This document shows, one piece after another, positions 7,847-31,965 of a stretch of DNA of 64,000 nucleotides. The first letter of the stretch is position 1. Each line of letters opens with the position of its first letter. The notes below the pieces were generated by a model. The model was not told the origin of the DNA and searched no databases. It saw only the letters and a list, made by a program, of their open reading frames with translations. Source of the DNA: Pseudomonadota bacterium (GTDB taxonomy: Bacteria; Campylobacterota; Campylobacteria; Campylobacterales; Sulfurospirillaceae). Location of the stretch: positions 1 through 64,000 of the forward strand of contig JAGDMU010000009.1 in NCBI GenBank assembly GCA_017860615.1, in the 5' to 3' direction. The translations under genes and the position numbers were made by a program.

Positions 7847-7922
7847 GGTCGCGTAGCTCAGTTGGTAGAGCACTACCTTGACATGGTAGTGGTCGGAGGT
7901 TCGAATCCTCTCGTGGCCACCA
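7847..7922 (+). tRNA. tRNA-Val (anticodon GAC)
   Basis: A 76-nt cloverleaf with encoded CCA (7920-7922). The acceptor arm GGTCGCG pairs with CGTGGCC, including G-U pairs. The D-arm GCTCAGTTGGTAGAGC and the T-loop GGTTCGAATCC are canonical. The anticodon stem CTACC/GGTAG encloses TTGACAT, giving anticodon GAC (valine). A run of seven T follows directly at 7923-7929 and may aid 3' termination. thrS begins 53 bp downstream. Confidence 0.97.
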
Positions 7923-7932
7923 TTTTTTTGTT

Positions 7933-7950
7933 CTCCCGTTTGTTTGGGAG
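7933..7950 (+). terminator. Small hairpin between tRNA-Val and thrS
   Basis: CTCCC, an eight-base loop, GGGAG, just after the T7 run. Without its own T-tract it is more likely a leader hairpin of thrS or an RNA-processing signal than a classical terminator. Confidence 0.3.
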
Positions 7951-7975
7951 TTCATACAAGTAAAAGGATTCTATT

Positions 7976-9793
7976 ATGATGAATGATGTTATAGCCTATA
8001 AAGAAGGTGCTCTCGTCATCGACACCCAAACTGCTACTGTTTCTTCAAAGACTTACGAAGACAAAATCTTATTTGACAATTCTAAAGATGCCCTTGAAGT
8101 GATTCGTCATTCATGCGCGCACCTAATGGCACAAGCGATTAAAGCGTTGTACAAAGATGCACAATTTTTTGTTGGCCCCGTCATTGAAGATGGTTTTTAC
8201 TACGATTTTCGTGTCAATGAAAAGATCGGTGATGCTGATCTAAAAGAGATAGAAAAAAAGATGGCAGAACTCGCAAATGCCAAGTTGCCAATTGAGAAGA
8301 TTTATACTACTAAAACGGCTGTTATCAAACATTTTGAACACGATGATCTTAAGCAAGAAGTGTTGCTTAGAATTCCTGATGGTGAAGTTTCCATTTATAA
8401 GCAAGGGGATTTTGAAGATTTATGTCGTGGACCTCACGTTCCCAATACCAAATATCTTCGATTTTTTAAACTTATTAAAGTAGCAGGTGCTTATCTTGGT
8501 GGGGATGAAAAGCGTGAAATGCTCACACGTATCTACGGTATAGCTTTTGCAGATAAAGAGAGCCTCAAAGATTATGTTACAATGATTGAAGAGGCGAAAA
8601 AGCGCGATCACCGTAAGCTCGGTAATGAACTTAAACTGTTTACATTTGATGATGAAGTAGGGGCAGGACTTCCTATTTGGCTTCCTAATGGAGGAAGACT
8701 GCGAAGTAAGTTAGAGCAACTTCTTTTTAAAGCGCATAGACAACGTGGGTATCAGCCTGTACGTGGACCTGAGATTTTGAAATCAGATGCGTGGAAAATC
8801 AGTGGACACTATCAAAATTACGGCGAAAATATGTATTTTACCGTAATTGATGAAGCAGAATACGGGATCAAACCGATGAACTGTTTAGGGCATATTAAAG
8901 TGTTCCAAAATGAGGTCAGAAGTTACCGTGATTTACCTCTCAAATTTTTTGAATACGGTGTTGTACATCGCCATGAAAAAAGTGGCGTACTCCATGGGCT
9001 ATTCCGTGTACGCGAATTTACACAAGATGATGCGCATATTTTCTGTACCCCAGATCAAATTAAAGAAAACGTTCTAGAAATTTTAAGTTTTGTCGATTCT
9101 ATTATGAAGACTTTTGGATTTAAGTATGAGATGGAAATTTCAACTCGTCCTGAAAAATCAATTGGCGATGAGAAATATTGGGAAGCAGCAACCGAAGGTT
9201 TGAAGAAAGCACTTGATGAGAATGGCATCAAATATGGTATTGATGAAGGTGGTGGAGCATTTTATGGTCCTAAAATTGACATTAAAATTACCGATGCGCT
9301 GAAACGTAAATGGCAATGTGGTACTATTCAAGTTGATTTTAACTTGCCTGAGCGTTTTGATATTTCATATGTAGATGCTAACAATGAACATGCGCGTCCC
9401 GTAATGTTACATCGTGCAATTTTAGGTTCATTTGAGCGCTTTATTGGTATTTTGATTGAACACACTTCTGGTGAGTTTCCATTTTTTATTGCACCAATTC
9501 AAGCGGTTATTATCCCTATTTCAGATGCACACTTGGATTATGCTAAAACATTAGCCAACGAATTGATGCAAGAGGGTATTGATGTTGAGGTTTCATCTAA
9601 AAATGAGAGTCTTAATAAACGTATTCGTAATGCAGAAACGATGCGTGTCCCGATGATTTTAGTGATTGGCGACGCAGAAGTTGAAGGCCAGAGCGTTGCT
9701 GTTAGAGACAGAAGAGAGAGAACACAGTATAATTTGACAAAAGAAGCATTAATATCAAATATGAAGGAGAAACTTAGTGAGGTACACTTTTGA
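7976..9793 (+). CDS. thrS: Threonyl-tRNA synthetase
   Basis: This 605-residue class II synthetase charges tRNA-Thr. The editing domain starts at [18 protein letters not shown] (about residue 39) and has the HxxxH-type motif. The catalytic core has [16 protein letters not shown] and [18 protein letters not shown], with zinc-ligand Cys/His residues, and the anticodon-binding domain ends with [17 protein letters not shown]. Only about 38 residues precede the editing domain, against about 66 in E. coli, so the N-terminal TGS domain is missing or vestigial; to my knowledge this is usual for Campylobacter and Helicobacter enzymes. The stop overlaps the TTG start of infC. Confidence 0.96.
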
Positions 9794-18242: not shown

Positions 18243-18248
18243 TATACT
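18243..18248 (+). promoter_or_regulatory. -10-like box upstream of leader element A
   Basis: TATACT immediately after the stop of the previous gene. Transcription would start about where the conserved 104-nt element begins. Confidence 0.35.
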
Positions 18249-18252
18249 TTAC

Positions 18253-18356
18253 GTGCAAGAATGAAAAGTACCCAAGGTACGTGGACTTTTTGCCAAAGAA
18301 AATCGAGTGATAACGTAGTTTTTAAAGCATTGCTTTAAAAATGTGTCAAGAGATCT
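18253..18356 (+). ncRNA. Leader element A: conserved 104-nt structured element upstream of eptA-dgkA
   Basis: This segment matches, without gaps and at 84 of 104 positions, a segment on the minus strand at 31841-31944 upstream of mlaE. Three hairpins can form: GTACC/GGTAC with a CAA loop, CTTT/AAAG around TTGCC, and TTTTTAAAGC/GCTTTAAAAA (18319-18341). In the other copy the first stem reads GCATC/GGTGC, so one T-A pair became C-G and one C-G became T-G. This is compensatory change expected of RNA structure. A 25-codon ORF (18261-18338) exists here, but its ATG is absent from the other copy. Confidence 0.65.
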
Positions 18357-18379
18357 CATTAAACTTCAAGCGAGAATGA

Positions 18380-19969
18380 ATGCAATTTAAACTAACCAGT
18401 ATAAGACTTATCGTGATTGTGGCACTTTTCTTAGTGCTTTTTGATAACATCTCTTTTTTTAAACACGTGACTCAAGTCTATGAACTCTCTATCTCAAATC
18501 TCGGCTTTTTACTTTCATTAGGTGTTATTTTAACCTCCGTTATTACACTATTCGTGACATTGATCAGTTCGCGATATACCCTTAAAGCTTTTTTGATTGT
18601 ACTGGTACTTATTGCTTCTGTAAGCAACTATTTTATGAATACATATGATGTTATTTTAGATGATACGATGATTCAAAATGCAATGGAAACAAACGTCAAT
18701 GAATCAATGGACCTTGTGAATTGGAAACTCTTAGCCTATCTTTTCTTTTTAGGCATTATTCCCTCCATGATGATTTATCGTGTACCTGTTACCTATGGGA
18801 ATTTTAAAGAAGAAGTTTGGGGGAAACTAAAGAGTATTATTTTAGTGATACTTATAAGTTTAGTGATGCTTTTTGCCTTTAACCGTTTTTATACCTCTTT
18901 TTTTAGGGAGCATAAGCCTTTACGTTATTATACCAATCCAACGTTTTGCCTCTACTCTGCGGGTAAATATATTTACAATACTTTTTACAAAAAAGATGCG
19001 ACGCTTAAGCAAATTGGATTAGATGCGCGAAAAACAGAAAGTAGTGTTCGAAAATTAACCATTGTCGTCGTTGGTGAAGCAGCACGTGCCAATCGTTTTT
19101 CTCTTAACGGCTACGAGAGACAGACCAACCCTTTCCTTCAAAAAGAGGATATTATTAACTTTTCCAATGTCTATTCATGTGGAACTTCAACGGCTATTTC
19201 AGTGCCGTGTATGTTTTCCATTTTAGAGCGCAAAAATTACAGCGACAAAGAGGCAAAATCAACAGAAAATGTCCTAGATGTGCTTAAACACAGTGGGACA
19301 ACTGTTTTATGGAGAGATAATAATTCAGATTCAAAAGGGGTTGCGTTACGTGTTGCGTATCAAGACTATCGAATAGCTCAAAACAATACACTGTGTGAAG
19401 ATGAGTGCCGTGATGAGGGCATGTTAGTGGGATTACAAGAGTATGTGGATGCTCAAAAGGGTGATGTGGTCATTGTTCTTCATCAAATGGGTAACCATGG
19501 CCCTGCGTATTACAAGCGTTATCCTAAAGCTTTTGAAAAATTTACACCGACCTGCCAAACCAATCAAGTGGAAAAATGTACTCCTGAGGAGATTGGCAAT
19601 GCGTATGACAATGCCATTTTATATACCGACTATTTTCTCTCCAAAACTATTGCTTTTTTAAAGCAGAATGATCAAAATTTTGAAACAGCGATGATTTACA
19701 TGGCAGACCATGGTGAATCTTTGGGTGAGAAAGGGCTTTATTTGCATGGGATTCCCTACTTTATGGCACCTGATGAGCAGACACATGTGGGTGCATTGAT
19801 GTGGTTTGGTCACAAAAGCAAAGAGCGTATTAATACACAGGCTCTTGCAGAAAAATCATCACAAGAATACTCACATGATAATCTTTTTCATACCATTTTA
19901 GGTGTGATGGGTGTTCAAACAGCGCTCTATGATCAGACAAAAGATATACTAACATACCAACAAAAATAA
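18380..19969 (+). CDS. Phosphoethanolamine transferase (EptA/EptC family)
   Basis: 529 residues: about five N-terminal TM helices, then a periplasmic sulfatase-fold domain. Metal/nucleophile signatures include VVVGEAARANRFSLNGYERQTNP, with the conserved Glu; the nucleophile threonine in YSCGTSTAISVPC; and MADHGESLGEKGLYLHGIPY. Such enzymes move phosphoethanolamine from phosphatidylethanolamine to lipid A, and in Campylobacter (EptC) also to the flagellar rod protein FlgG, releasing diacylglycerol. dgkA follows 9 bp later, as in C. jejuni Cj0256-Cj0257, and would recycle that diacylglycerol. A structured leader precedes the gene. Confidence 0.9.
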   Translation: MQFKLTSIRLIVIVALFLVLFDNISFFKHVTQVYELSISNLGFLLSLGVILTSVITLFVTLISSRYTLKAFLIVLVLIASVSNYFMNTYDVILDDTMIQNAMETNVNESMDLVNWKLLAYLFFLGIIPSMMIYRVPVTYGNFKEEVWGKLKSIILVILISLVMLFAFNRFYTSFFREHKPLRYYTNPTFCLYSAGKYIYNTFYKKDATLKQIGLDARKTESSVRKLTIVVVGEAARANRFSLNGYERQTNPFLQKEDIINFSNVYSCGTSTAISVPCMFSILERKNYSDKEAKSTENVLDVLKHSGTTVLWRDNNSDSKGVALRVAYQDYRIAQNNTLCEDECRDEGMLVGLQEYVDAQKGDVVIVLHQMGNHGPAYYKRYPKAFEKFTPTCQTNQVEKCTPEEIGNAYDNAILYTDYFLSKTIAFLKQNDQNFETAMIYMADHGESLGEKGLYLHGIPYFMAPDEQTHVGALMWFGHKSKERINTQALAEKSSQEYSHDNLFHTILGVMGVQTALYDQTKDILTYQQK

Positions 19970-19978
19970 AGGCTTAGT

Positions 19979-20341
19979 GTGAGAAATCAACCTAAATATC
20001 ACTTTTTTAAAAATACAACCTATGCGCTCAATGGCTTAAAAGATATGATCTCAAATGAGACTTCTTTTAAAATAGAGTTGGCACTGGTACTTGTTTTACT
20101 GCCTGTTTTATGGCTGCTTCCCTTAGATCTTTTATATAAATTGGTGATGTTTATTGCGCTTATGGGTATTCCTATGGCAGAAGCCATTAACAGTGCCATT
20201 GAGCGCGTAACCGATTTGGTTACTTTAGAGTACCATGAAATGGCAGGACGCGCCAAAGATGCGGGTAGTGCGGTTGTTTTTTTAAGCATTGTAATTTTTG
20301 TTGTTGTGTGGGGATTTTGTCTTATGCGTATTTTCTTTTAA
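19979..20341 (+). CDS. dgkA: Diacylglycerol kinase
   Basis: A 120-residue membrane enzyme with three TM helices and the DgkA signature EAINSAIERVTDLV followed by HEMAGRAKDAGSAVVFLS. It phosphorylates diacylglycerol to phosphatidic acid. It starts with GTG at 19979. Its place after a phosphoethanolamine transferase fits removal of the diacylglycerol by-product. Confidence 0.94.
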   Translation: MRNQPKYHFFKNTTYALNGLKDMISNETSFKIELALVLVLLPVLWLLPLDLLYKLVMFIALMGIPMAEAINSAIERVTDLVTLEYHEMAGRAKDAGSAVVFLSIVIFVVVWGFCLMRIFF

Positions 20342-20446: not shown

Positions 20447-22621
20447 ATGTCACAAACAATCAGCTATGGATCACTTAAAATAAATGCTGCTTTATATGAT
20501 TTTATCTCTAAAGAGGCAATACCTCATACAGGTGTGAGTGTTGAGCATTTTTGGAATGGGTTTGAAAAAACCGTTCATGAACTTGCTCCTATCAACCAAA
20601 TGCTTTTGGATAAACGTGATGCTTTTCAAGAAAAACTTGATGCTTGGTATTTAGCCCACCAGACAACGCCTTTTACACCCGAAGAACATCAGCGTTTTCT
20701 CAAGCAAATAGGCTATTTGGTGGAAGTACCTCAAGCAGAGGCTATTACGACTTTACAAGTTGATCCTGAAATTTCAGATGTTTCAGCCCCACAACTGGTT
20801 GTACCAGCCGATAATGCTCGTTATGCGTTAAATGCTGCAAACGCAAGATGGGGAAGTCTGTTTGATGTTTTTTATGGAACAGATATGATTGATGAGGTAG
20901 CGCCTTATGAAAAAAAAGAGCAGTACAATCCAGCACGTGGTGCAAAAGTCTTTGAACTCGCTTTTACTTTTTTGGATCAAGTTGCGCCTTTGAAGGAGCA
21001 TTCATACACTGATATTCATGGCTTTACAATTCAAAATCAACAACTTTATGCCATCCTCGCCAATCATCAAAGAGTAGCATTGATAGAACCTGAGAAATTT
21101 GTAGGCTATACCCTTCATGAGAATGAAATAGCCTCCCTTTTGCTTAAAAACAATGGGTTACATGTAGAGATTCAAATCGATAAACAAAGCCTTATAGGAA
21201 AGAGCCATCCATCGGGCATTAAAGATGTGATCATCGAATCAGCACTGAGTGCTATTCAAGATTGTGAAGATTCTGTAGCGGCAGTGGATGCAGAAGACAA
21301 ACTAGCCATTTATCGTAATTGGAATGGTTTGATGAAGGGAGATTTATCTGCCTCTTTTGAAAATAAAGGTAAAACCATACATCGAACACTCAATCCAGAT
21401 AAAACATTTACCTCACCGAATGGTGAACTATTTACATTAAAAGGAAGAGTGCTTTTATTGATACGCAATGTAGGTATACACATGTACTCAGATGCCATTA
21501 CGTGTCAAGATACAGCTATTCCTGAGGGATTTTTGGATGCTTTTGTCACGACACTTTGCGCAATGCACGATCTTCAAAAATCAGAGGGCATTCGCAATAG
21601 CGTCAAAGGCAGTGTCTATATTGTCAAACCAAAATGCCATGGCCCTGAAGAGATAGCGTTTATAAATACGCTTTTTGGTCGTGTTGAGGATGTCTTAGCC
21701 CTGCCACGACATACCATTAAAATGGGGATTATGGATGAGGAGAGACGTACAACGATTAATCTTGAAGCAGCGATTTTGCAAGCAAAAGAGCGGGTCTTTT
21801 TTATCAATACAGGCTTTTTAGATCGAACGGGAGATGAGATTCACTCTTGTATGGAATTAGGAGCTGTTGTTCCCAAAGAAGCGATGAAAAAAGAGGTTTG
21901 GCTTAAAGCGTATGAAGATCACAATGTTGATGTTGGCTTGAGTATGGGATTTAAGGGTAAAGCTCAAATTGGCAAAGGGATGTGGACGATGCCTGATTTG
22001 ATGAAAAAGATGGTTGAGCTTAAAATAGCGCATCCAAAAGCAGGTGCAACAACAGCGTGGGTGCCATCACCAACGGCGGCGACACTGCACGCATTGCATT
22101 ATCATTACATTGATGTTCAAAAGGTGCTCCAAGAGATTGCAAAGCGTCCTAAAGCGAGTCTTGATGCTATTTTGATGCCTCCTCTGTTGCATGGCACATT
22201 AAGTAAAGAAGAGATTACGCAAGAGATTGAAAACAATATACAAAGTATCCTAGGCTATGTTGTTCGTTGGATAGATCAAGGAATAGGGTGTTCTAAAGTA
22301 CCTGATATTAACAATGTGGAGCTAATGGAAGATAGAGCGACACTCAGAATCTCAAGTCAACATCTTGCAAACTGGTTACATCATGGCATCGTAACACACG
22401 AAGAGGTTAAAAATACATTTGAAAAGATGGCGGTCGTGGTAGATAAGCAAAATAGTCACGATAAGAACTATCGCCCTATGGCAGCTCATTTTGAGAAGAG
22501 TATAGCTTTTCAAGCCGCATTGGATCTTGTTTTTAAAGGAAGAATGCAGCCCAATGGCTATACGGAATTTATTTTACATGATAGAAGAAAAGAGGTTAAA
22601 AAGCAGAGGTCACAAGGCTAA
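20447..22621 (+). CDS. glcB: Malate synthase G
   Basis: 724 residues, the full length of the monomeric G isoform, which condenses glyoxylate with acetyl-CoA to malate. Recognisable segments are SVYIVKPKCHGPEEIAF, GIMDEERRTTINLEA with the metal-binding Glu, FINTGFLDRTGDEIH and GKGMWTMPDLM. The C-terminal region includes EDRATLRISSQHLANWL with the catalytic-type Asp in MEDRATLR. An AAGGAG site precedes the ATG. No isocitrate lyase is in the window, so glyoxylate could come from glycolate or elsewhere. It is transcribed alone from a palindrome-framed promoter. Confidence 0.95.
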   Translation: MSQTISYGSLKINAALYDFISKEAIPHTGVSVEHFWNGFEKTVHELAPINQMLLDKRDAFQEKLDAWYLAHQTTPFTPEEHQRFLKQIGYLVEVPQAEAITTLQVDPEISDVSAPQLVVPADNARYALNAANARWGSLFDVFYGTDMIDEVAPYEKKEQYNPARGAKVFELAFTFLDQVAPLKEHSYTDIHGFTIQNQQLYAILANHQRVALIEPEKFVGYTLHENEIASLLLKNNGLHVEIQIDKQSLIGKSHPSGIKDVIIESALSAIQDCEDSVAAVDAEDKLAIYRNWNGLMKGDLSASFENKGKTIHRTLNPDKTFTSPNGELFTLKGRVLLLIRNVGIHMYSDAITCQDTAIPEGFLDAFVTTLCAMHDLQKSEGIRNSVKGSVYIVKPKCHGPEEIAFINTLFGRVEDVLALPRHTIKMGIMDEERRTTINLEAAILQAKERVFFINTGFLDRTGDEIHSCMELGAVVPKEAMKKEVWLKAYEDHNVDVGLSMGFKGKAQIGKGMWTMPDLMKKMVELKIAHPKAGATTAWVPSPTAATLHALHYHYIDVQKVLQEIAKRPKASLDAILMPPLLHGTLSKEEITQEIENNIQSILGYVVRWIDQGIGCSKVPDINNVELMEDRATLRISSQHLANWLHHGIVTHEEVKNTFEKMAVVVDKQNSHDKNYRPMAAHFEKSIAFQAALDLVFKGRMQPNGYTEFILHDRRKEVKKQRSQG

Positions 22622-29940: not shown

Positions 29941-30675
29941 TCAACTTAAAAATTTTTTCAATTCGTCATCCGTTGTTTGTCTTAGAAGTTCTATATTACC
30001 TTCAAATTGTACTTTTTTATGGCCCAAAATTATAAAACGATCGAGTACATTTTCAATAGTGTCTTTATCGTGTGTGACCATAATCACCGTAATGCCTAAC
30101 GTGTCACGTAGAGTTATGATCAGTTCATCAAAAGCTCTGGCGCTTTGTGGATCAAGTCCAGAGGTTGGCTCATCCAAAAAAAGTAACTTTGGATCAAGAG
30201 CAAGAGCTCTGGCAAGTCCCGCTCTTTTTTTCATACCGCCACTAAGCTCCGAGGGGTACATATGTGCAACTTTGGGTGGAAGTCCTACCATTGAGAGTTT
30301 CATTAAAGCAGACTGTTCAATGAGCCAATCTGGTAGATTTGTATACTCTTTCATTGCAATGGCTACATTTTCTAAAATCGTTAATGAGGTAAAAAGCGCA
30401 CCAAATTGAAACAGTACTCCCCACTTTTGTCTGAGTTTTTGAGCCATTTTAGTCGAAGTGGTCATGACATTGGTTCCTAGAACCAGCATCTGTCCAGCAC
30501 TGGTTTTTTGAAGCATAATCATCTCTCGAAGGAGAGTGGTTTTACCACTGCCACTGCCACCCAAAAGTCCAAAAATTTCCCCTTTGTGAATCTTGAAACT
30601 CACGCCATCGTGAATAACATGTTTACCAAAGCGTGTTACAACCTCTCTAGCTTCTATCATAACGTGGTTTTTCAT
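29941..30675 (-). CDS. mlaF: MlaF-type ABC transporter ATPase
   Basis: 244 residues with Walker A GGSGSGKTT, signature LSGGMKKRAGLARAL, Walker B LLFLDEPTSGLDP and switch His in VMVTHD. The LSGGMKKR variant is typical of MCE-linked ATPases. The ATG at 30675 overlaps the mlaE stop in an ATGA, so the subunits are translationally coupled; a longer in-frame reading is not needed. Confidence 0.92.
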   Translation of the reverse strand: MKNHVMIEAREVVTRFGKHVIHDGVSFKIHKGEIFGLLGGSGSGKTTLLREMIMLQKTSAGQMLVLGTNVMTTSTKMAQKLRQKWGVLFQFGALFTSLTILENVAIAMKEYTNLPDWLIEQSALMKLSMVGLPPKVAHMYPSELSGGMKKRAGLARALALDPKLLFLDEPTSGLDPQSARAFDELIITLRDTLGITVIMVTHDKDTIENVLDRFIILGHKKVQFEGNIELLRQTTDDELKKFLS

Positions 30676-31802
30676 AGCCCCATCTCCGTGAGAAGTACAG
30701 AGATAACAGCATCTATGGCAATCACCCAAAAAATAGCATTGACCACGCTAATGGTTGTATATTTACCCACACTCTCAGTACTACTGTCGATTTGAAAACC
30801 ACGAAAACAGCCAATGGTCGCAATGATACACCCAAAAATAGGTGCTTTGATAAGTCCAATAATCAGGTGCTTTAAGGCCACTGTTTGCTTGATACGGTCG
30901 ATAAATTCAACAAAACTGACATCAAGTTTCGTTGCTGCAATAACCATACCACCAAAAACAGAGACGACATCAGCAAAAAAGACTAAAAGAGGTAGCGAAA
31001 GAATGAGTGCAAACAAACGAGGTAAAACGAGAAAATTCCAGGGTGAAAATCCCATAGCACTCATGGCATCGACTTCATCGGTAATTTTCATAACACCAAT
31101 TTGTGCTGTATAGGCTGAAGAGCTTCGTCCTGCTACAACGATTGCTGTGAGCAAAGGTGCTAGCTCACGTACAGCGGAAATCGTAACCATCTCAACAATG
31201 AAGATGTTAGCGCCAAATTTTTCGAGTTGTGTTGCCCCTTGATAGGCAATAACAATACCAATTAAAAAAGAGGTTAACAAAATGATAGGAATAGCGCCAG
31301 CCCCACTTTGTTCGATATGATAGAGTGTTGCTTTCAGACGGATGGTCAAGGGCTTTAAAAAAGCAGCTATCACATAATGCGTAAGTTCACCAGTGAAAGC
31401 AAAAAAAGAGGAAAGGGTTTTATAGCCCTCAAATATATCTTTTCCAATATTTTCAAGATACGAAAGAAGAAACATCTCTTTTTTTTCAACGATTTTTTCT
31501 TGAGGATAGTGCTGTTCGCAAATATTCAGAAGTTTTTCCAAAGATTCATTCGCGCCCACTCGGGTGATGGAACATTGTTGTGCTTCAAGTTTTTTAACAT
31601 GGTGCAAAATCAGCATAATTCCATGCGTGTCAAACTCTGTAATCCCAGAGAGATCAAACGTATAATTCATCTTAGGTTTGCATGTCAGTGCATTCAATGC
31701 CAGTTCGAGTTTTTGAATCGACTCTTTTACCCATGCACCCTGCAATGTAATACTGAAACCTTCTTTTGTTTGAGTTACATGCAGTGAGGGGATTTTTTTC
31801 AT
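30672..31802 (-). CDS. mlaE: MlaE-type permease with N-terminal STAS-like domain
   Basis: 376 residues. Residues 1-90 look like a STAS domain (FSITLQGAWVKESIQKLE, YTFDLSGITEFDTHGIMLI); the role MlaB plays as a separate protein in E. coli is here fused. Residues about 115-376 form the MlaE permease, with GAGAIPIILLTSFLIGIVIAY, VRELAPLLTAIVVAGRSSSAY and ITDEVDAMSAMGFSP. It opens the operon and is preceded by leader element B. Confidence 0.92.
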   Translation of the reverse strand: MKKIPSLHVTQTKEGFSITLQGAWVKESIQKLELALNALTCKPKMNYTFDLSGITEFDTHGIMLILHHVKKLEAQQCSITRVGANESLEKLLNICEQHYPQEKIVEKKEMFLLSYLENIGKDIFEGYKTLSSFFAFTGELTHYVIAAFLKPLTIRLKATLYHIEQSGAGAIPIILLTSFLIGIVIAYQGATQLEKFGANIFIVEMVTISAVRELAPLLTAIVVAGRSSSAYTAQIGVMKITDEVDAMSAMGFSPWNFLVLPRLFALILSLPLLVFFADVVSVFGGMVIAATKLDVSFVEFIDRIKQTVALKHLIIGLIKAPIFGCIIATIGCFRGFQIDSSTESVGKYTTISVVNAIFWVIAIDAVISVLLTEMGL

Positions 31803-31840
31803 TGAGCTTTACCCCGATTTTTATTAAATAGAGTTCTTTT

Positions 31841-31944
31841 AGAACTCTTGAAACGCTTTTAAAGCAAAGCTTCAAAAACTACGTTAACACTAGGTTTTCT
31901 TCGGCAGAAAGCCCGCGCACCTTTGATGCTTTTACTTCTTGCAA
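31841..31944 (-). ncRNA. Leader element B: second copy of the 104-nt structured element, upstream of mlaE
   Basis: 81% identical over 104 nt to element A at 18253-18356 and likewise in sense orientation to the gene that follows. It keeps all three hairpins: GCATC/GGTGC, CTTT/GAAG and TTTTTGAAGC/GCTTTAAAAG, the last retaining pairing through G-U. It is flanked by two further hairpins, one just upstream (31935-31962, 12 of 13 pairs) and AGAGTTCT/AGAACTCT just downstream toward mlaE. Shared leader control of envelope-lipid operons is inferred. Confidence 0.65.
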
Positions 31945-31965
31945 AATTAATTTTGTAAGAAGCCT

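Follow-up and report, generated by a model that had tools for sequence, protein, structure and literature searches.

Two operons of predicted envelope-lipid function lie in the window (the whole 64,000-nt stretch of DNA analysed here), and a copy of one short repeat stands in the leader of each (Table 1). An ungapped alignment of positions 18253-18356 (+), before the eptA-like and dgkA-like genes, with 31841-31944 (-), before the mlaE-like gene, gives 84 identical positions in 104. BLAST of the former segment against its own genome recovers the latter at E = 1.5e-22, so the match is not due to chance. Each copy is sense-oriented relative to the next ORF. The first hairpin reads GTACC/GGTAC in the eptA copy and GCATC/GGTGC in the mlaE copy, one T-A pair having become C-G and one C-G pair T-G. 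In these particulars, including the compensatory changes, the initial annotation was exact; it went on to propose a conserved RNA structure and a shared riboregulator of a lipid regulon. A covariance search places only these two copies inside the window.

Table 1. Repeat copies, their parts and the adjoining genes in the window
Feature	Position (strand)	Remarks
-10-like box TATACT, eptA leader	18243..18248 (+)	CTAAACTATACTTTA identical in eight element-free relatives
Insertion in eptA leader, approximate extent	18263..18360 (+)	from comparison with the empty leaders of eight relatives (L083-L090)
Copy 1 core, 87 nt	18264..18350 (+)	full model length; cmsearch 97.8 bits, E 5e-18
Copy 1 H1	18268-18272/18276-18280 (+)	
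Copy 1 pseudoknot strands	18284-18286/18292-18294 (+)	
Copy 1 helix	18288-18291/18297-18300 (+)	
Copy 1 mini-hairpin	18307-18314 (+)	
Copy 1 H3	18318-18328/18332-18342 (+)	
eptA-like phosphoethanolamine transferase, beside copy 1	18380..19969 (+)	Pfam Sulfatase, EptA_B_N
dgkA-like diacylglycerol kinase, behind eptA-like gene	19979..20341 (+)	Pfam DAGK_prokar
mlaE-like permease, STAS-like N-terminus, beside copy 2	30672..31802 (-)	Pfam MlaE, STAS_2
Copy 2, complete MITE, 136 bp, upstream of mlaE	31830..31965 (-)	both inverted repeats present
Copy 2 3' terminal inverted repeat/hairpin AGAGTTCTAAAAGAACTCT	31830..31848 (-)	reverse complement AGAGTTCTTTTAGAACTCT is the family 3' end
Copy 2 core, 87 nt	31847..31933 (-)	full model length; cmsearch 106.9 bits, E 7e-20
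Copy 2 5' terminal inverted repeat AGGCTTCTTACAAAA	31951..31965 (-)	two mismatches to family end AGACTTCTTGCAAAA

The two copies are differently preserved. Copy 1 has lost its 5' inverted repeat and retains a degenerate 3' repeat; its pseudoknot pair 18285-18293 is A-C, and the copy is therefore slightly decayed. Copy 2 runs beyond the aligned 104-nt segment to its terminal inverted repeats and is flanked by AAT and ATT. The -10-like box of the eptA leader, a putative promoter element, is by comparison with the relatives older than the insertion.

Other features of the window and genus were recorded in passing. Positions 7884-7997 (-) match the Rfam antisense RNA HPnc0260 just above threshold, overlapping a tRNA at 7847-7919 on the opposite strand. 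The nearest retrieved relatives of the malate synthase G encoded at 20447-22621 (+) are alpha- and gammaproteobacterial, apart from one Sulfurospirillum MAG, which suggests lateral acquisition; with a single Sulfurospirillum record retrieved, the gene was set aside as a synteny anchor. A palindrome, TTTACATGTAAA, recurs near promoters in many Sulfurospirillum upstream regions, including L083-L090.

A covarying core with a pseudoknot

In the order-wide alignment the core measures about 87 nt and combines a pseudoknot with three helices and a mini-hairpin whose loop is GNNA. Double-sided changes occur at 11 of 23 pairs among 14 copies from the window's own genome, and none of 500 shuffles reaches the covariation score of this set. 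Among 55 distinct sequences from across the order, 22 of the 23 pairs show such changes; covariation stands at 0.787 against 0.261 in shuffled alignments, and double-changed cells number 346 against 111. Sliding the pairing partners in the order-wide set abolishes the signal. The sense-strand fold with compensatory change, first proposed from two copies, is in this way upheld on much stronger evidence than a single pair of copies can give.

The 55-sequence alignment was fitted to a three-helix model from which the pairs of the pseudoknot and mini-hairpin were absent. A free scan of column pairs returned two pairs beyond that model. The first, 35-45 (G-C in 31 sequences, A-U in 23, G-U in 1), forms a pseudoknot together with the nearly invariant pairs 36-44 and 37-43, with the 5' strand of helix 39-42/48-51 as its loop. 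Pair 59-64 (U-A in 26, C-G in 25, U-G in 4), the second, closes the GNNA loop of the mini-hairpin. Once both elements are added, 97.5% of cells pair. An outer stem drawn by RNAalifold (34-36/54-56) was rejected in favor of the pseudoknot, being paired in 85.5% of cells of the order-wide alignment versus 98.2%; pair 36-54 of this alternative stem takes the A-U form in copy 1.

The strand on which the fold is kept can also be read from the alignments. G-U cells outnumber A-C cells by 153:19 in the genus and 111:14 in the order, an excess that indicates selection on one strand, whether that of an RNA or one particular strand of the DNA. Several unpaired positions are nearly invariant (GCYGA, AGYGNTARCGYAG and CGT), and GYAG precedes H3 in nearly all order-wide sequences. 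Neither the window copies nor 12 distant loci match any family in Rfam 15. Two familiar structures were rejected by eye: an intrinsic terminator, as no U-run follows H3, and an integron attC site, as the conserved GTTARCG is unlike the R' box GTTRRRY. Judged by comparative alignment, the core is a conserved, structured, RNA-like element with compensatory change beyond chance.

Dispersal, empty sites and IS5-type ends

A sequence search with copy 1 recovered 14 good copies from the window's own Sulfurospirillum genome (2.79 Mb, 31 contigs), and the covariance model R1 was built from these. R1 detects 24 strong copies in the same genome (E < 1e-12), 22 of them outside the window pair, and about 20 weaker matches; among the latter are copies, visibly truncated or diverged, that share the ends of the strong ones. 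All 24 Sulfurospirillum genomes have matches, from 5 to 69 each. The core occurs in 88 of 299 genomes and 20 of 81 genera of the order sample, and four distant genomes searched in full hold 10, 16, 23 and 62 copies. This covariance search of the order, with neighboring genes listed, bore out the existence of the element but not its proposed association with lipid genes, the neighbors being unrelated.

Among copies with usable flanks, for which ORFs were called by a simple script so that single rows may err, 30 are sense and 22 antisense within tandem gene pairs (binomial p = 0.33), while 27 lie in divergent and 15 in convergent gaps; a consistent sense orientation is thus lacking. Five tandem copies stand between nusG and rplK, and further copies precede rpmJ and glyQ or separate tRNA genes (gene names by eye from translations). 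Carriage as phage or plasmid cargo was considered and rejected: the pattern is present in only 2 of 2.9 million viral contigs, phage records gave no match, and the one plasmid found to carry the element, an example from outside the genus, belongs to Sulfurovum mangrovi.

Comparison of relatives points to mobility. In eight relatives the orthologous eptA gene has this promoter and leader, CTAAACTATACTTTA...ATG, but no element, and the leader in the window is longer than this empty site by about 98 bp at a single point; the position upstream of the gene is accordingly not conserved. G017 and G023, a near pair, differ at seven sites, each occupied in one genome and empty in its partner; not every one of these sites has intact inverted repeats.

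The ends of the repeat suggest how it may move. Complete copies in the genus start with AGACTTCTTGCAAAA, end with TTCTGCAAGAACTCT and are flanked by ANT. Both terminal inverted repeats are present in 38 of 97 distinct genus copies, and 22 of these 38 two-ended MITEs have identical 3-bp flanks, versus 11.2 in shuffles (maximum 20 in 2000). IS elements measuring about 907-918 bp, with ends of this type, were found in two genomes, G008 (five copies, end AGACATCTTGCAAAACTCA, with MITE counterpart end AGACTTCTTGCAAAACTCA) and G020 (four copies, end AGACTTCTTTCATAACCC), and ANT target duplications accompany all nine IS copies read. In G008 the IS5-family IS has the end AGACATCTTGCAAAA, which the family MITE end AGACTTCTTGCAAAA resembles; the transposase of this IS is split over two frames (HTH_Tnp_4 and DDE_Tnp_4; NCBIfam IS5). 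In the window's own genome, a full-length partner IS whose ends match was not found. Three marks of an IS5-type MITE are present in the genus: inverted repeats in common with an IS, a target duplication of the same kind, and insertion polymorphism between relatives. By their ends, many Sulfurospirillum copies are recognizable as MITEs of IS5-family-like type; from these ends, the duplications and the filled and empty sites, we infer that an IS5 transposase would move them in trans.

Further repeats in the genus were noted beside this family. A second family of MITEs, each about 164 bp long and bounded by inverted repeats AGACTTCTTNCATAACCCTTGAAAAGA, is present in the window's own genome (G000; L246-L250; C4:15399-15562, C7:59143-59306, C15:20015-20178, C21:90716-90878 and C28:8206-8368). 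The ends of this second family match the 907-bp IS5-like element of G020, and it has no similarity to the core of the first, structured family. A RAYT-like Y1 transposase gene of the same genome (G000:C26:72547-72873, L021) has 41-nt inverted repeats, GGGGTCAGGGCTAAAC, unrelated to the core repeat. An insertion of 106 bp upstream of cbiB has been reported in Sulfurospirillum (PMC7755780), and this strain difference is reproduced as a clean indel between G008 and G020; it was rejected as an instance of the present repeat, as the two upstream regions (L281, L282) differ by unrelated sequence.

Outside Sulfurospirillum the core mostly occurs without the MITE inverted repeats, and the sequence of its stems is entirely different. 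It is often arranged there in perfect head-to-tail arrays of 87-113 bp; arrays from different genomes (L233, L070 and L288) have a common short spacer, AAAGATAA. Direct repeats of 20-26 bp enclose three distant copies, L295, L307 (G187) and L322 (G301), against an expectation of about 0.05, and greatly exceed in length the 3-bp duplications seen at MITE copies. Since many copies do not have both inverted repeats, the IS5 route cannot account for all dispersal. By its distribution, the core is older than the MITE and common across the Campylobacterales. In G249, arrays at L330, L331 and L332 are followed, directly before start codons, by a second shared hairpin (about GAAAGGYTTCCTTTC-ATTTTATAAAATAAAATTAAGGAAT), perhaps another repeat module.

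A probable mobile repeat around an older folded core

We consider it likely, with a probability of roughly 80%, that the repeat is a dispersed mobile element, an IS5-mobilized MITE around an older core that folds as a single strand, with no role in a lipid regulon. The Sulfurospirillum form would often be a non-autonomous MITE of about 136-150 bp with ends AGACTTCTTGCAAAA...TTCTGCAAGAACTCT, putatively cut and pasted in trans at ANT targets by a full-length IS5-family transposase. The core would be kept in a single-stranded folded form, RNA most likely, in the order H1, pseudoknot (GGC-YYCY-GCC-GA-RGRR), GNNA mini-hairpin, GYAG with the long H3, and CGT; the strand asymmetry would also fit a folded single strand of DNA. 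As the orientation of copies shows no bias, the fold probably benefits the element and not its neighbors. A part for the core in its own spread would most plausibly be played at the RNA level, through protein recognition of the transcript or RNA processing. Landing in the eptA and mlaE leaders would then be incidental, lipid genes being neither targeted nor regulated as a set, while a co-transcribed copy may locally change mRNA stability or expression.

A bolder alternative, though unlikely, is that an undescribed pseudoknotted RNA family of the Campylobacterales acts and spreads at the RNA level for itself, as a new small ribozyme or a bacterial SINE-like element, and was captured by an IS5-type MITE; this capture would have given the family a second means of movement in Sulfurospirillum. 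We think it distinctly unlikely that the core itself is a self-cleaving small ribozyme, or a SINE-like and retro-mobile RNA, which spreads by way of RNA and was secondarily captured by an IS5-type MITE in Sulfurospirillum. The pseudoknotted fold of the core, with invariant unpaired bases and freely varying stems, would suit such an RNA; so would the dispersed copies and tandem arrays, selection on the sense strand that is unbiased with respect to host genes, and flanking repeats of variable length at three copies. However, Rfam 15 returns no ribozyme or other family for the core, and long flanking repeats are rare.

Next in standing, and rather improbable, is a host-beneficial mRNA element acting in stability, processing or insulation and selected by the host at many loci, like co-opted ERIC or BOX. 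One orthologous copy, kept in three species (L195, L063 and L032), has diverged less than the sequence on either side of it. When all orthologous pairs, which are not independent, are taken together, the core differs at 36 of 1044 positions (3.4%) and the flanks at 82 of 1435 (5.7%; p = 0.01), and some copies lie inside operons. But gene conversion could explain the slower change of the core, antisense copies are about as many as sense copies in tandem gene pairs, and gain and loss between near relatives are frequent. Some old copies may nonetheless have been co-opted by the host.

Processing as REP-type single-stranded DNA by a RAYT (Y1 transposase), examined with the Y1 and RAYT families, offered the best established mechanism for a strand-specific folded repeat. 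In nearly all copies a GYAG stands immediately 5' of a hairpin, which recalls the GTAG foot of REPs, and the tandem arrays resemble BIMEs. RAYT-like genes occur in the genus, and outside it their presence is correlated with that of the element (odds ratio 3.2, confounded by ancestry). Yet a RAYT match is missing from 30 of the 88 element-bearing genomes, including the near-complete G249, which has 23 copies of the element, and G301, which has 16. A set of 30 RAYT genes has no copy in its vicinity, nor has the RAYT of the window's own genome, whose flanking repeats are different; and H1, the pseudoknot and the mini-hairpin are not REP features. We regard this explanation as very improbable.

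A cis-regulatory RNA of an envelope-lipid regulon, which the covarying fold and the sense position of both window copies in the eptA/dgkA and mlaE leaders had recommended, is already refuted as a general rule and scarcely credible, given the many copies in random orientation and context, the eptA leaders of relatives that do without one, and the unrelated neighbors elsewhere. Two matching leaders should not be called a regulon before the copies are counted.

Among known systems, IS5-mobilized MITEs are similar in being short and free of ORFs, with many intergenic copies, inverted repeats of a congeneric IS, 3-bp ANT duplications and filled/empty polymorphism; they differ in that the interior here is an older structured core, not an evident deletion product of an IS, which also exists across the order without inverted repeats. 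Repeats of the ERIC and Correia/NEMIS type are largely single long stem structures. Our repeat, in contrast, has several independent helices with conserved unpaired bases, although it shares with these and other enterobacterial and neisserial small mobile repeats an intergenic position, palindromic ends and the capacity for co-transcription (PMC2229807, PMC10969869). Prokaryotic MITEs in general are among the closest published analogues (PMC10969869). The pneumococcal BOX, RUP and SPRITE elements are likewise small, interspersed repeats with predicted RNA folds, modular with tandemly duplicated parts and also found between convergent genes (PMC3049150). The likeness drawn here is one of architecture, and the present fold is set apart by its backing from covariation across an order, pseudoknot included.

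In open-licence papers, where absence is not proof, we found no literature on this repeat or on repeats or MITEs of Sulfurospirillum or the Campylobacterota. What the locus holds is a MITE-like mobile repeat with an order-wide, pseudoknotted, RNA-like core, and an uncatalogued folded repeat this widespread is unusual. Small repeats of bacteria are usually treated as DNA litter, their hairpins a by-product of inverted ends. A strand-specific, covarying fold with nearly invariant unpaired bases instead implies that something reads the element, as RNA or as one DNA strand. Once identified, the reader of the fold would explain the persistence of the element across the order, and would offer a mobile repeat in which selection at the RNA level can be put to the test.
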